Shown piece after piece: positions 2,379 through 15,696 of a stretch of 29,229 nucleotides of DNA. Source of the DNA: a virus; IMG/VR virus record IMGVR_UViG_3300037285_000088, positions 1-29,229 of that record; one strand, 5' to 3'. The position numbers were made by a program, and so were the translations under genes. The notes under the pieces were generated by a model that was given only the letters and a program-made list of their open reading frames with translations, was not told the origin of the DNA and ran no database searches. Position 1 is the first letter of the stretch. Each line of letters begins with the position of its first letter.

Positions 2379-5300
2379 ATGGCAAAACAAGATGTTAATA
2401 CCGGAGTAGAAGGAAACGATGGCACCGGCGACAGTATTAGAGAAAGTTTCCGTAAAGTTAATGAAAACTTTACGGAACTATATGCGATCTTTGGACTTGG
2501 CGGAAACATCAGTTTTACCACTCTTAACGACACGCCGGATACACTACTAAGCAATGAAGGTAAAGTCCCTTTAGTAAAACAGGACGGCACTGGGATTGAT
2601 TTTTACGAATTAGTATCCAATGCAGGCACAAACAACCCCAGCGATCCAGCCAACACTATTAGTTTTGATGTTGTAGGAAATACGTTAGTAGTTAGTTCGA
2701 TTAATACCAACATAAGCAGTGATCCGTCGCCAGTTGTTGCTAACCCATTTAAGATTAGTGCTCCGACAGCATATAATAATTCCACACAAGCTACTTTGAT
2801 CAGCGGCGACACTAGCTCTCTTGTTACTGCATTTAATAACATACACGACGCGCCAGACATTACGGAAGATAACCTTTTGGTATCCAAAGGCTACACTGAT
2901 CTAAACTATGTAAATGTAAGTGGCGACACACTAACCGGGCCACTTGAGGCAACTGCAGGCGCATCAGGAAACCAAGTTCCGCGAGTTAACGAAGTTGTTC
3001 GCATTGCAGGCGACACAATGACAGGAGCACTGGATTTATTCGACCACCCTGCACCATTTGCAGGGCTAGGGACGCCGAACAGTCAGCAAGACCTACAAGC
3101 AGCAACAAAATTTTATGTTGACAGCAGTTCTTACAGTAGCACCGTAAATCTTTATGTTACAAAAGCAGGTAATGATGCGCAAACGCTGTCGCCGCCGGGT
3201 AAAAAAGGTCGTAGCAACAGTTATTCGTATGCTAGTGTTGAAGCAGCATGTGCCAAAGCAGCACGAATACAAGAAGCATCCAAAGTTGAAGCAGGTCCTT
3301 ATGTTCAAGTAATTCAATATCAAGACGGCGTTGATACATTTAATTCTTATTTGCTAGCCACAGATGATTCGGCGACCGGTTTTGGATACCAGACTGCAGG
3401 AAACCAAACAATTGTTGCGACAGCAATTGAGTCTGAACGTGCTAGTATTATTACAGATACAATTTCAGCTGTCAATGCAGCATTTCCTAATTTTGTTTAT
3501 TCCGAAGCAACTTGCAGTAGAGATATCGGACTAATACTGGACAGCGTTAAGTTAGACATTGAAGCAAGCACTACAACGATTAAACATAACTATTTGTCGA
3601 GATTTGCAGGACTTCGATACTTTGCAAATCCAAATTCTGAAATTGCAATTGACCCTAATGGACAATACACCGAAACAGCATTTGGCATTTTACAAGCAAA
3701 GATCCTCATACTTGCAGAAATTGCAAGTGTGTTGGGCACAACTTCTGATCAGTGGTATACTGCTGTTAGTGACCGATTTGACGATGTTTTAAATACAATT
3801 GACCAAAGTACTAACGATCCGACGTTGGTCGAAGCACCTAACTACTATAATCTGTGGGTACACAGCGGTCCAGACAAATATACTATTCAATCCGGTAATC
3901 CGTCTGATCTTGCACCAAATGCCGATCTTATTCCTGGTAAAGTTATACTAGGAAAGACCAGCGGCGCAGTTGGCAGAATTGTAACTTATACAAGAGGAAC
4001 TGACACAGTTGGTACTCCTACTTATGACACAGTTGAATTAGAACTATTATCACCAACTGAATTTATAGCCAATGAAGAGCTAGATTTTGGAAACTTGGTT
4101 AAAGCAACCCAGATTACAATTATTGTCGAATCTGGCATATACGAAGAGCAACTTCCTATACGTATTCCTAATAACACTTCTGTCAAGGGTGACGAATTTA
4201 GACGTGTAATCATTCGTCCTGCGGCGGGCATAAGTCAAAGCGCATCGGCTAGAACATATTTTTATAGAGACACAGTGTTTGACGGGATTACATTAACTAG
4301 CTCTGGTGAAGCGCAAGTAGATCCAAACACTGGTGTTACTGTTGGATATTACGGATATCATTATTTAACAGATCCAACTGATCCGTTGAGTGCTCCAAAG
4401 AACAACAACGAGATAGATGTGTTTCTGGCAAATGATAGTACTATTGTAAGAAACTTAACAGCACAACGACAAGGCGGGTTTATGATGGTTCTTGATCCTA
4501 ACGGATCGGTCCAAACTAAATCACCATACGTACAAACATGTTCGAGTTTTAGTGCAAGTAAAAATATTAAGACGTTTGCAGGAGGAATGTTTGTAGACGG
4601 ATACACCTACAATATGCCTGTTACTATTGTTAGTAAAAGCAACGACTTTACAATAGATGTCGAAGCAGCTTCAACATCCGGACTAGGAATCAGACGTCCC
4701 AAGACTCCTGCATCGTATTTTATTAACGGAGTACGATATCAAATTAATGCTATTGCAAACTATGTTGCAGATAACGGATCTGGCGTGGCTAGCGCAACTT
4801 TAATCATAAGTGAAAACAGCAACAACGGCAACGGCTTTACTGCAAGCGCATCATCTCAGCAGATTGTACTACAAGGTGCTGGCAACAAGTCAATGCTAGC
4901 AAACGACTATACCCAAATTAACGATTTAGGATACGGTATTGTAGTTGTTAATAACGCACTAGCCGAACTAGTATCTGTATTTACTTATTATTGTCATATC
5001 GGTTACTATGCAGGCACAGGTTCACAGATTCGATCACTAACTGGTAACAACAGTTACGGTACATTTGGAATGATTGCAGCCGACAGCGACCCAGACGAAG
5101 AAGCGGCGGCTATCACCCTTGCACAGTCTCATGTTCAGCCAGCTAAGATATTTGCAGTTTCGCAAGAATTAGTTTTTGCAGGCGACCTGACATCGAGCCT
5201 GACCGACGGCGAAGAAATTAGCCAAAATTCAACAGTTGGCATTCTTGCGTTTGCCAACTATGACGGAACAGATACTACATTATTCATACAAAGTTCGACA

Positions 5301-12179: not shown

Positions 12180-12746
12180 ATGACTAGTGAAATTATTAGC
12201 ACAACAATAGACGAAAACTTTCCAGTAGCAGGACAAGATAACGACAGCCAGGGCTTCCGTGACAATTTCAACATTGTTAAAGCAGCATTAGCTGTAGCAG
12301 GCACAGAGATCACAGACTTGCAGGTTGGGGCAGTGCGCAAAGATACAAGCGACAACAACTTTGCTGGCAATTCAATTACGCAAGCTAACTTTAGAGCTTG
12401 TACGTCGGAATCAAACTTAACTAATGCTATTATTCCATTAGTGGGTGCAGACTTAACTATTGACTGGACAGACGGACCATCTGTGTATGTCGTTTCAGTT
12501 AACAATGACCGAACCTTTAATATTTCTAATTTACCAACTACACAGTACGCAGTAATGAGATTTATAATAACAGGAGATGGTACACCACGAAACGTTGAAT
12601 TTTCAATTGTTAACGGGACTGTAAAAGTTGAAAGCGGATCAACTAATCCAGTTGTAGTAACATCAGCAACTGATCCAGTTGTTGTTGAAGTGTTTAGCTA
12701 CAACAACACTGTGTTATTTCTAAGAACCATAGGCAGCTTTGCTTAA
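12180..12746 (+). CDS. Virion structural protein with a diverged shared module
   Basis: A 188-aa protein. Residues 9-45 (ENFPVAGQDNDSQGFRDNF, NIVKAALAVAGTEI) are a diverged form of the N-terminal module in the three upstream fibre genes: an acidic-Gly turn, then a helix with the R-x-N-F/N-x-N-F pattern. The rest is beta-rich (DLTIDWTDGPSVYVVSVNN, MRFIITGDGTPRNVEFSI), ending in VVVEVFSYNNTVLFLRTIG. Similar proteins, as I recall, occur in marine T4-like phages as structural genes next to fibres. It has AAGGA 7 bases before the start codon and a late promoter motif, so late expression is likely. The exact position in the virion is unknown. Confidence 0.7.
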   Translation: MTSEIISTTIDENFPVAGQDNDSQGFRDNFNIVKAALAVAGTEITDLQVGAVRKDTSDNNFAGNSITQANFRACTSESNLTNAIIPLVGADLTIDWTDGPSVYVVSVNNDRTFNISNLPTTQYAVMRFIITGDGTPRNVEFSIVNGTVKVESGSTNPVVVTSATDPVVVEVFSYNNTVLFLRTIGSFA

Positions 12747-12985
12747 TGCATCCCAACCTACACGATCTATTAGAAATGACTGACCGAGATATCGAAAGTA
12801 AGATTGCAAGGTTGAATTCTGTCTACTTCATGACAACAGACGAAGATGTGCGACACCAAATGATACTGTTACTAGATACGTTTAAGGTAGAGCAACAAAC
12901 TCGGTCACTGGCTGCAAGAAAAAGACAGGCAGAAAACCGCAAGCCCGGCGATAATGATCTTGACAGCTTAATAAAAGTAAGCTAA
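12746..12985 (+). CDS. Small helical protein, conserved-looking, unknown function
   Basis: A 79-aa protein beginning in a TAATG overlap with the preceding virion gene. It is mostly helical and charged: TDRDIESKIARLNSVYFM, then DVRHQMILLLDTFKVEQQ, then a basic stretch RSLAARKRQAENRK. The look is of a small coiled-coil or adaptor protein. I have an impression of similar ~80-aa genes in marine T4-like phages close to the fibre block, but cannot name a function. It ends 8 bases before the polymerase III-like gene. Confidence 0.7.
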   Translation: MHPNLHDLLEMTDRDIESKIARLNSVYFMTTDEDVRHQMILLLDTFKVEQQTRSLAARKRQAENRKPGDNDLDSLIKVS

Positions 12986-12993
12986 TATAAGAC

Positions 12994-13548
12994 ATGCTCT
13001 TAAAAACTGATGACCTAGGGGTCCCACGATTTAACAATCGAAATTTAATGGATATGATTTATCACGGAAACTTGGAAAAGTGCCATGTGGTACTTTGTGA
13101 TCCAAGTGATGATATTGATCTGTTCAATGAACGGGCAGAGGAACTAGGACTAGTTCCTCTTATGAAATATGTTACACTAGACGTTGATCAAAAGACGTTC
13201 GACGGAGTTTGCCAAAGCGAATGGTATATGCCAGACAAGTACAAGAATTTAGATTTATTTAATTATCTTAAGAATGCGTGCGCAGATCATCTCGGATGCA
13301 AGACAAACGAATTGGATCGTTATCCAAATTGGAATAGAGCACTACACGAATTAAAAGAATTCCAGGACAGAGGCATGGAAAAAGTGTTGCACTATATGGT
13401 CTATCTTGTGGACTTCATGCGTGAAAATGACATCGTCTGGGGTGTGGGCAGAGGCAGCAGTGTTGCAAGTTATGTATTGTTTCTAATCGGTGTGCACCGA
13501 ATTAACAGTGTCGAACACAACCTAGACTGGCGCGAATTCCTAAGATAA
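12994..13548 (+). CDS. Stand-alone fragment of DNA polymerase III alpha (DnaE-like), no catalytic aspartates
   Basis: A 184-aa protein whose C-terminal half resembles the region of bacterial DnaE between the PHP domain and the first catalytic motif. Residues ~105-148 (RALHELKEFQDRGMEKVLHY then VDFMRENDIVW) match the helix pair that precedes the palm, and 150-184 (GVGRGSSVASYVLFLIGVHR then HNLDWREFLR) match the DnaE stretch GxGRGSxxGSLVAYxLxIT...LLFERFL. In DnaE the next residues are NPERV followed by the catalytic PDxDxDF; here the protein stops exactly before them. Residues 1-100 have no clear match. It therefore cannot polymerise alone. It could bind primer-template or DNA, or mimic host DnaE to interfere with its partners; both are inference. 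No good ribosome-binding site is seen before ATG 12994. Confidence 0.75.
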   Translation: MLLKTDDLGVPRFNNRNLMDMIYHGNLEKCHVVLCDPSDDIDLFNERAEELGLVPLMKYVTLDVDQKTFDGVCQSEWYMPDKYKNLDLFNYLKNACADHLGCKTNELDRYPNWNRALHELKEFQDRGMEKVLHYMVYLVDFMRENDIVWGVGRGSSVASYVLFLIGVHRINSVEHNLDWREFLR

Positions 13549-13572: not shown

Positions 13573-13588
13573 ACTGGTTGACACCAGT
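13573..13588. repeat. Inverted repeat centred on a promoter -35 element
   Basis: ACTGGT-TGAC-ACCAGT is a perfect 6-bp inverted repeat with a 4-base centre. The centre and right-arm edge form the TTGACA -35 box at 13578-13583. The symmetry fits an operator for a dimeric regulator, or a short RNA hairpin at the end of the upstream polymerase-like transcript. No T-run follows, so terminator function is unlikely. Confidence 0.5.
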
Positions 13589-13606
13589 CATAAGTAATGT
13601 TATATT
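13578..13606 (+). promoter_or_regulatory. Strong sigma70-type promoter with extended -10
   Basis: TTGACA (13578-13583), a 17-base spacer and TATATT (13601-13606) form a near-consensus vegetative sigma promoter. TG one base before the -10 makes it an extended -10. It stands in the 72-base gap before ATG 13621, with AAGGAG at 13609-13614. A start about 7 bases after the -10 (near 13613) would cut into that ribosome-binding site, so the real start site needs mapping. It marks the beginning of the early/middle-type gene block. Confidence 0.65.
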
Positions 13607-13620
13607 ATAAGGAGATATAA

Positions 13621-14004
13621 ATGGCAATGAAACAACCTGGTCGAAAAGTCTACAGAAGTGCAAATGGAAGAAATATCGATCTCGATCTTTTAATTTCTCG
13701 AAACGAACTAACACCAGCAGTTGGCAACGCTAAAGTCAACGCTCGTGGTGACGAACTAGGCCCCGGTGGCCGAATAGTTCGTAAAAAAGAAGATGTATTA
13801 AAAGATTATTACAATCAATCTCCTGGCGTAGCAAACGAGTCTGTTACAAAAGAGATTACAGAAGAAATTGTAAGAGAAGAAACCAAGCAGCCTGTATTCA
13901 AGCCTGTGCCCACGACAACGGAACAGCTTGACAAGTGGATCGAAGACGACGAAGGAAATTTTGCGCAAAACAAATCTAAAAGTTCTACAGCTAAGAAAAG
14001 GTGA
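13621..14004 (+). CDS. Basic/acidic bipartite protein, conserved-looking, unknown function
   Basis: A 127-aa protein of unknown function. The N-terminal 65 residues are basic and Gly/Asn-containing (MKQPGRKVYRSANGRNIDLD, RNELTPAVGNAKVNARGDEL, GPGGRIVRKKEDVLKDYYNQ). From residue 75 on it is acidic and low-complexity, ending in a Lys/Ser tail (NKSKSSTAKKR). There is a strong AAGGAG Shine-Dalgarno site and a near-consensus promoter directly upstream, so it should be well expressed. It is separated by 3 bases from the co-chaperonin gene and is probably its operon partner. I recall similar proteins in other marine T4-like phages, always unannotated; an assembly-factor or substrate role for the co-chaperonin is speculation. 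Confidence 0.72.
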   Translation: MAMKQPGRKVYRSANGRNIDLDLLISRNELTPAVGNAKVNARGDELGPGGRIVRKKEDVLKDYYNQSPGVANESVTKEITEEIVREETKQPVFKPVPTTTEQLDKWIEDDEGNFAQNKSKSSTAKKR

Positions 14005-14007
14005 TTA

Positions 14008-14415
14008 ATGGCAGGAAATTTTAACAAGGTTTTTAAAGGTAATTTAAAACCCATACACGATAGAGTTATTGTAAACGACATGCACTTTGGTGAACAGAAA
14101 ACTAAAAGTGGATTGATCATAAGTGACGACGACGGCACAACGCGCGGCGTTTATGCACGTTGGGGACAAGTACACGCCAAAGGAGAAACCAACTCGGACG
14201 CCTACAATGTAGGTGATTGGATTCTGGTCGAACATGGTCGGTGGACCAGGGGATTAAATGTTGACAGTGGCGACGGTTCCAAAGAACTGCGTATGGTTGA
14301 TCCAGACGCTGTTATGGGTTGGCAGACTGAACAACCAACTGGATTAACGTTTGGTAAAGAATACAAAGACGGCGAAGGTGCAACATTTGACCCGCAAGAC
14401 TTTGTGAGAGTGTAA
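14008..14415 (+). CDS. GroES-like co-chaperonin (T4 gp31-type role)
   Basis: A 135-aa co-chaperonin-like protein. The GroES signature is visible: LKPIHDRVIVNDMHFGE (residues ~12-28, matching GroES RPLHDRVIV), a mobile-loop-like segment with KSGLIISDDD (GroES has KSAGGIVLT), then GVYARWGQV and VGDWILVEHG (GroES GEVLAVG and VGDIVIFNDG). T4 gp31 replaces host GroES in the GroEL complex so that the phage capsid protein can fold; the same role is likely here. The family is usually 95-111 residues; the extra ~25 residues form a C-terminal tail (FGKEYKDGEGATFDPQDF) that may contact GroEL or a substrate. It begins 3 bases after the preceding gene and ends in a TAATG overlap with the next. Confidence 0.82.
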   Translation: MAGNFNKVFKGNLKPIHDRVIVNDMHFGEQKTKSGLIISDDDGTTRGVYARWGQVHAKGETNSDAYNVGDWILVEHGRWTRGLNVDSGDGSKELRMVDPDAVMGWQTEQPTGLTFGKEYKDGEGATFDPQDFVRV

Positions 14416-15101: not shown

Positions 15102-15130
15102 TTGACTCCTTGATGATTGCATGCTAATAT
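15102..15130 (+). promoter_or_regulatory. Sigma70-type promoter with extended -10 before the exonuclease gene
   Basis: TTGACT (15102-15107), a 17-base spacer and TAATAT (15125-15130) form a good vegetative promoter, with TG one base before the -10 (extended -10). The architecture is the same as at 13578-13606. A start site near 15137 would keep the AAGGAG ribosome-binding site (15142-15147) in the transcript. Confidence 0.65.
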
Positions 15131-15148
15131 ATGTTATTATTAAGGAGT
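15105..15148 (+). promoter_or_regulatory. Long-range RNA helix that would mask the exonuclease ribosome-binding site in readthrough RNA
   Basis: ACTCCTT (15105-15111) is exactly complementary to AAGGAGT (15142-15148), with a 30-base loop. The right arm contains the Shine-Dalgarno site of the exonuclease gene and is followed by nine T (15148-15156). The left arm lies inside the promoter -35 region. It would therefore be present only in RNA read through from the upstream operon, not in RNA started at the local promoter near 15137. Readthrough RNA could be silenced (or even terminated at the T-run) while locally started RNA is translated. The long loop lowers confidence in stable folding. Confidence 0.5.
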
Positions 15149-15156
15149 TTTTTTTT

Positions 15157-15696
15157 ATGAAAACACACGGCACAATTGACTTGGAGACATTAGATGTCAT
15201 TCCAAGCGCAACAGTACTAAGTCTAGGCGCTGTAAAGTTTAATCCTTTTAGCACAAGTTCTGAACCGCATTCTGAACTGTATCTTAAAATATTAATAGAC
15301 GATCAGGACAAACTGGGCAGGACCTCCAGCGACAGCACAATTGCATGGTGGGGAAGACAAGACCCTGCTATTATGGAAGAAACATTTGACCAGACAGGCG
15401 CTGTCACTGTCGAAGAAGCCCTTCGACAAGTAAGCAAATGGAGCATGGGAGTAGATGAGTTTTGGGGACAAGGTTATGGCTTTGATTTTACAATGCTAGA
15501 AAATATGTATCGCAGCATTGGAAAACCTATTCCGTGGCAGTTCTGGCAAGTAATGGACAGTCGGACAATTACCAGACGTATGCCCAAGGACCCGCGCAAG
15601 GATATGCAAACTTCTTTGCACAACGCGCTAGCTGATGCATACTACCAAGCAAAGTCAATTCAAATTATGTTTGATCATAACGGATGGCAAAAGTGA
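15157..15696 (+). CDS. dexA: DnaQ-fold 3'-5' exonuclease (DexA-like)
   Basis: A 179-aa DEDDh exonuclease. Residues IDLETLD (Asp8, Glu10) form Exo I, GYGFDFTMLEN holds the Exo II aspartate, and SLHNALADAYYQA (His155, Asp160) forms Exo III. The middle phrase DSTIAWWGRQDPAI resembles T4 DexA (STIEWWKNQSPEA), so DexA-type 3'-5' exodeoxyribonuclease is the best guess; related phage proteins act on RNA. I choose ATG 15157 because AAGGAG at 15142-15147 lies 9 bases (all T) upstream; the frame extends to 15121 but that leader overlaps the promoter. The family in T4 is about 227 aa, so this is a compact version. It has its own promoter and a possible RNA switch over its ribosome-binding site. The 3' end overlaps the next gene by 13 bases. 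Confidence 0.82.
   Translation: MKTHGTIDLETLDVIPSATVLSLGAVKFNPFSTSSEPHSELYLKILIDDQDKLGRTSSDSTIAWWGRQDPAIMEETFDQTGAVTVEEALRQVSKWSMGVDEFWGQGYGFDFTMLENMYRSIGKPIPWQFWQVMDSRTITRRMPKDPRKDMQTSLHNALADAYYQAKSIQIMFDHNGWQK

Follow-up and report, generated by a model that had tools for sequence, protein, structure and literature searches.

A phage gene that ends just before the catalytic aspartates of DnaE probably encodes one half of a minimal family C DNA polymerase split in two

The DNA analysed here, hereafter the window, is the entire 29-kb record (29,229 nucleotides) of a virus from an uncultured clade. It contains a gene, which we call P1, that lies on the plus strand, begins with ATG, stops with TAA and encodes a product of 184 amino acids. 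The features of the gene and its surroundings are as follows.

12746..12985, plus strand: 79-aa gene directly upstream of P1, with a very weak phrog_15348 match (E 0.009)
12994..13548, plus strand: P1 (184 aa), predicted to be the N-terminal half of a minimal family C polymerase (Pol III alpha-like) in split form
12994..13212, plus strand: N-terminal extension of P1, residues 1-73, with no DnaE alignment by sequence or fold
13213..13545, plus strand: part of P1 that corresponds, by sequence and fold, to the beginning of the DnaE palm (E. coli ~279-393)
13441..13461, plus strand: GVGRGSS motif, residues 150-156, counterpart by sequence of the DnaE GS nucleotide-binding loop
13546..13548, plus strand: conserved split point, a TAA right after ...DWREFLR, ~7 residues before the equivalent of E. 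coli DnaE D401
13578..13606, plus strand: sigma-70-like promoter match for the next gene, TTGACA-17-TATATT, a consensus match only (11/12)
13621..14004, plus strand: conserved downstream neighbour, phrog_14844, of unknown function, syntenic in GAP32 and Cassandra
14008..14415, plus strand: GroES-like co-chaperonin / 'head morphogenesis' gene, syntenic
15121..15696, plus strand: 3'-5' exonuclease-type gene, phrog_255, near P1
16807..17727, plus strand: clamp loader, T4 gp44-like, syntenic in relatives

The P1 product matches PF07733 (DNA_pol3_alpha) with E=6e-11 and 42.9 bits against a cut-off of 23.9, its residues 91-183 covering profile positions 2-94 of 260, and it covers nearly the full length of PHROG_11127 (171 aa, named 'DNA polymerase') with E=9e-37. 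Searched with phmmer against the PDB as a single sequence, residues 114-183 gave a non-significant alignment (E=0.06) with DnaE as far as ...FERFL, while a profile built from 104 P1 relatives matched E. coli DnaE 320-392 (E=0.002). The Pfam, PHROG and profile matches bear out a sequence-only reading of the window, which had described a 184-aa DnaE-like product stopping before PDxDxD. Judged from its sequence, P1 is a DnaE homologue that ends at the residue before NPERV...PDFDVDF, and the catalytic aspartate is absent from P1 alone. Reading frames are intact among the relatives and key residues are invariant at 32-82% identity; within GVGRGSS, G150 and G152-S156 are invariant among the 104 relatives. 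Residues 1-73 are conserved within the phage family and have no DnaE counterpart, the fold match being confined to residues 74-184, and it is possible that they contact the partner protein described below or another part of the replisome.

The same reading had placed a new promoter after P1. The consensus match stands, at 11 of 12 positions, and comparable matches were read in the close relatives L002 and L007, but promoter-like hits in the region are not in excess (8, compared to 6.1 +/- 2.6 in shuffled sequences).

The position at which P1 ends is fixed. The eight closest IMG/VR loci, which are 70-82% identical to the window P1, stop at the identical codon, and in a further set of loci from the window clade the frame closes 0-1 residue past the end of the match in 37/37. 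Among 167 environmental relatives, counting only loci with a closed frame and thus a stop codon in view, the stop lies 28-34 residues after GxGRGSS in every case (28 residues at 156 loci, 29 at seven, 30 at two, and 32 and 34 at one each). Stand-alone P1 proteins of 122-183 aa that share this end point are also encoded by the cultured phages Cassandra, Atu_ph07, RAS14, XaC1, GAP32, SCTP-2, Vibrio 2.275.O, KP13-7 and Alishewanella Slickus01. In the full-length DnaE of Bacillus phage FADO, the chain continues through FLNPDRISLPDIDIDF, the FLNPDR...PDIDIDF region. Homologues of P1 thus end alike in 37/37 window-clade loci and 167/167 closed frames, which rules out a local truncation of the window gene and upholds the earlier claim that the end is there by design and is not a random break. 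A broader version of the truncation idea, that P1 is what is left of a full DnaE, taken from a host and now decaying, could draw on the genome paper of phage CBB, where the homologue, annotated as Pol III alpha, is noted simply as 'truncated' (PMC5259590). Against this, the end point is shared by 167/167 loci, frames are intact and residues invariant at 32-82% identity, and P1 is widespread and syntenic. The conserved end point and residues refute the remnant reading, to which we assign practically no probability.

A search with PF17657 (Pol III fingers) returned weak matches, of which six fall in ORFs 192-221 aa long, located elsewhere in six of nine complete genomes that carry P1. These ORFs, here called P2, open with ..TDIDIDF or similar, followed in DnaE order by K-x-D-x-L, IRP and KKSH/KPHAxxY. 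A further match, in a 558-aa protein of GAP32 (L030), looks by eye like a terminase and was set aside as a chance hit. P2 is a protein of ~190-220 aa that starts at 'xDIDIDF' and retains all the catalytic aspartates in 92/92 non-redundant sequences; invariant in these environmental sequences are D2, D4, D6, K62, D64, R131, P132, K161, H164 and Y168. The catalytic aspartates, which the sequence-only reading had taken to be absent, are therefore carried by a second stand-alone gene that co-occurs with P1. In DnaE, the GRGS loop binds the phosphates of the incoming nucleotide, and two metal ions are bound by the DxD and KxD aspartates. Since invariant residues of this one site sit on two proteins, selection appears to act on a joint active site. 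P2 matches PHROG_11778, annotated 'DNA polymerase', and in the descriptions seen PHROG_11127 and PHROG_11778 are not named as halves of one enzyme.

P2 typically lies in a conserved uvsW - P2 - primase - gp41 block: uvsW, primase and gp41 surround it in GAP32, Cassandra and Atu_ph07, and primase and helicase in Phosso. DnaQ-type exonuclease genes are found near P2 in GAP32 and XacN1, and these, like the exonuclease gene near P1 in the window, may encode a proofreading partner.

We considered two ways in which the two products might be joined. Frameshifting is ruled out because the genes are kilobases apart. A split intein of the type found in cyanobacterial DnaE was rejected because no intein sequence is present at the ends; P1 stops 28-34 residues past GxGRGSS and P2 begins 1-20 residues before DxDxD, leaving no room for intein halves.

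The two genes occur together with high regularity. P2 is present in 11/11 complete cultured phages carrying P1 that were checked (the nine first examined together with XacN1 and Phosso), at 12 kb to >100 kb from P1 and mostly in the replication block, and a P2 profile search found exactly one gene in each of 9/9 P1 phages (E 1e-62 to 1e-100). The same profile found no P2 in FADO, whose DnaE is unsplit. In each of the nine complete P1 phages only one gene exceeds the PF07733 cut-off, indicating that none carries a full DnaE; second PF07733 matches in GAP32 and Vibrio 2.275.O were considered as candidates for one and fall below the cut-off. In the phage collection, where 60 of 63 P2 records and 55 P1 records were compared among the matches listed, P2 accompanies 53 of the 55 stand-alone P1 records among those matches; the remaining two comprise an incomplete 86-kb record and a GenBank copy of another record in which P2 is present. 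Ten large contigs picked for P1 yielded P2 in eight, and contigs of >130 kb picked for P2 yielded P1 in six of seven. No P2 match was obtained in the large P1 contigs G076 (359 kb) and G077 (203 kb), and no P1 match in the P2 contig G048 (195 kb); these may be fragments or real losses. Distances within P1 and within P2 correlate across 20 genomes (r=0.82), a value that, without a control gene, may reflect shared descent only. Each half has at least 567-596 matches in IMG/VR. Both are present in Alishewanella phage Slickus01 (L022, L025), and since its genome of 141,644 bp is below jumbo size, the split polymerase is not confined to jumbo phages.

In addition, we compared structure models of the two proteins with known folds. 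The AlphaFold2 model of the window P1 has a mean pLDDT of 90.3 and a pTM of 0.68, and that of P2 from the window-clade genome G052 a mean pLDDT of 94.8 and a pTM of 0.83. VIA-align placed P1 residues 74-184 on E. coli DnaE 279-393 and on the equivalent ranges of the Taq, M. tuberculosis and PolC enzymes, with Z of 7.4-10.2 to 11 Pol III alpha/PolC entries and 3.4 for the next unrelated row. P2 was placed on E. coli DnaE 401-832 and its equivalents over 177-190 residues (188/190 in the best rows), with Z of 6.4-9.7 compared to 2.9 for the next unrelated row. Middling Z values are frequent with VIA-align, but here the top rows belong to one family and stand well above the remainder; Foldseek alone gave weak E-values for P1, the best being 0.026. 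On these models, P1 and P2 are adjacent, non-overlapping stretches of one DnaE chain, with ~7 residues around NPERVSM missing between them. A Pol beta-like palm with a GS loop and three catalytic aspartates is thus supplied by the two proteins jointly and not by the window protein alone. The pair is not a cellular Pol III alpha, lacking the single chain, the PHP domain, most of the thumb and the C-terminal clamp and tau parts.

These results bear on the proposal, made in the sequence-only reading, that P1 is an accessory or a decoy. As a decoy, P1 alone would inhibit host Pol III by occupying sites on the host clamp, on tau or on the template; inhibitors of host replication are indeed known from phages, and P1 on its own does lack the catalytic aspartate. 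However, the known clamp- and tau-binding regions of DnaE lie beyond E. coli residues 279-832, the only part to which P1 and P2 map, so that the P1 part contains neither. In addition, the aspartate-bearing P2 co-occurs almost always, the GRGSS loop is invariant although a decoy would have no need of it, and P1 is syntenic with phage genes in phages of many hosts. The accessory or decoy role at host clamp and tau is not supported by this comparison, and we regard the decoy as very unlikely.

We think it highly probable that P1 is the N-terminal subunit of a minimal two-gene family C DNA polymerase that is rebuilt with P2, and we infer its assembly, activity and role as follows. By analogy with DnaE, P1 would give the first part of the palm and the GRGSS loop that holds the phosphates of the incoming nucleotide, and P2 would contribute the three catalytic aspartates together with a fingers domain of reduced size. 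Because split-intein sequences have no room at either end, the two proteins would associate without a covalent link to rebuild one active site. The PHP, HhH, OB, clamp-binding and tau-binding parts and most of the thumb are missing, and with the thumb so reduced, processivity would have to come from elsewhere, if at all. The enzyme would most likely be auxiliary to a family B replicase, acting in gap filling, repair or lesion bypass, or on one strand.

The reduced size of the pair leaves room for a different activity, in which P1 and P2 assemble into a non-processive nucleotidyltransferase (end-tailing, priming or nucleotide-adding) that lacks the thumb gripping the primer-template. The spacing from DxDxD to KxD is ~150 residues in E. 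coli DnaE (D401/D403 to D555). In P2 it is ~66, from which we conclude that the thumb is largely deleted, and P1 and P2 together total only ~370-400 aa. On the other hand, both the fingers motifs and, from the dNTP/template site of DnaE, the KxxH...Y helix are conserved in P2, which is located in the replication block, so that we judge a nucleotidyltransferase to be unlikely. A second possibility concerns the split itself, which might be a functional control whereby the polymerase is formed only when both genes are expressed, for a stage-specific job. P1 lies in a co-chaperonin/structural/clamp-loader block and P2 in the replication block, and the job could be, for instance, to complete or repair the DNA ahead of packaging. 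We hold this idea to be tentative and rather improbable; if it were true, a two-subunit active site without a thumb would add a new functional type to the family C polymerases.

Since the window is the whole of its record, whether its phage has P2 was addressed via relatives. A motif search found no P2 in the 29-kb window, and none was found in 46 window-clade contigs. The 251-kb relative G001, whose P1 is 82% identical, contains P1, its downstream neighbours, the clamp loader, PhoH and a family B polymerase; a sensitive HMM search found no P2 in it, and homologues of uvsW, primase and gp41 were likewise not found. We had suspected from this contig that the window clade lacks P2, but dropped the idea given that G001 is missing the uvsW/primase/gp41 block that surrounds P2 elsewhere, which accounts for its lack of P2. 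In the 357-kb contig G052, whose P1 shares 61% identity with the window P1 across its 184 residues, P2 is found next to primase and gp41, and both genes are present in the window-clade genomes G059 and G060. Going by these relatives, the phage of the window likely carries P2 outside this 29-kb fragment. The earlier statement that a T4-like phage would bring a family B polymerase of its own agrees with the gene seen in G001, the closest long relative; no such gene lies within the window.

Two observations were made by eye in these contigs. The family B polymerase gene of G001 (131586-136670, L046) is interrupted twice, by a ~397-aa HNH homing endonuclease-like ORF and by an intein-like insertion within the YGDTDS motif. 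In G052 (L193, 4505-5570), P2 overlaps the end of a peptide deformylase-like gene, and just upstream are KdsA-like (1284-2063) and KdsB-like (2711-3385) genes of KDO synthesis.

A split minimal Pol III alpha has been described in group 2.2 jumbo phages by Iyer et al. 2021 (Viruses 13:63, PMC7824862), as two stand-alone proteins encoded by distant genes, of which the N-terminal one binds NTP and the C-terminal one binds Mg2+ and template; the phages concerned have a family B polymerase as well. These authors propose that the two proteins reconstitute an enzyme resembling an ancestral form (PMC7824862), and the paper on Atu_ph07 lists a Pol III alpha gene (PMC6102473). The window P1 is a further member of this split system: it is likewise a stand-alone N-terminal part with a GRGS loop that ends before the catalytic aspartates, but it comes from an uncultured clade whose nearest named phages are 45% identical. 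Within the literature searched, the position of the split and its constancy, the abundance in uncultured phages, the presence in a phage of 141 kb and the way the two folds complement each other are new, and no biochemical test of a split pair was found. Compared to bacterial DnaE (E. coli 2hnh, Taq 2hpi, M. tuberculosis 5lew), the pair shares the palm/fingers fold and the order of motifs, but it is split, has ~370-400 aa compared to ~1160, and is devoid of PHP, HhH, OB and clamp/tau parts. If the pair works, it would to our knowledge be the smallest family C polymerase, and two chains would contribute to its active site. Such an enzyme would test whether a family C polymerase can do without the thumb, PHP and clamp-binding parts, and also whether the phage form is the ancestral one proposed by Iyer et al. 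or one that arose by gene fission. Entries annotated 'truncated Pol III alpha' in these phages should be read as one half of a pair.

Single-chain DnaE-like polymerases of phages, such as those of FADO and of Streptomyces and Mycobacterium phages, have the core motifs in the order of P1 and P2 but are unsplit. On the minus strand of two further contigs (L306 in G070 and L307 in G062) we observed an unsplit, compact DnaE-like polymerase of ~550 aa without PHP, which in L306 adjoins a gp41 helicase gene. Both contigs also carry P2 a few kb off, and a split and an unsplit family C enzyme may exist side by side in these phages.
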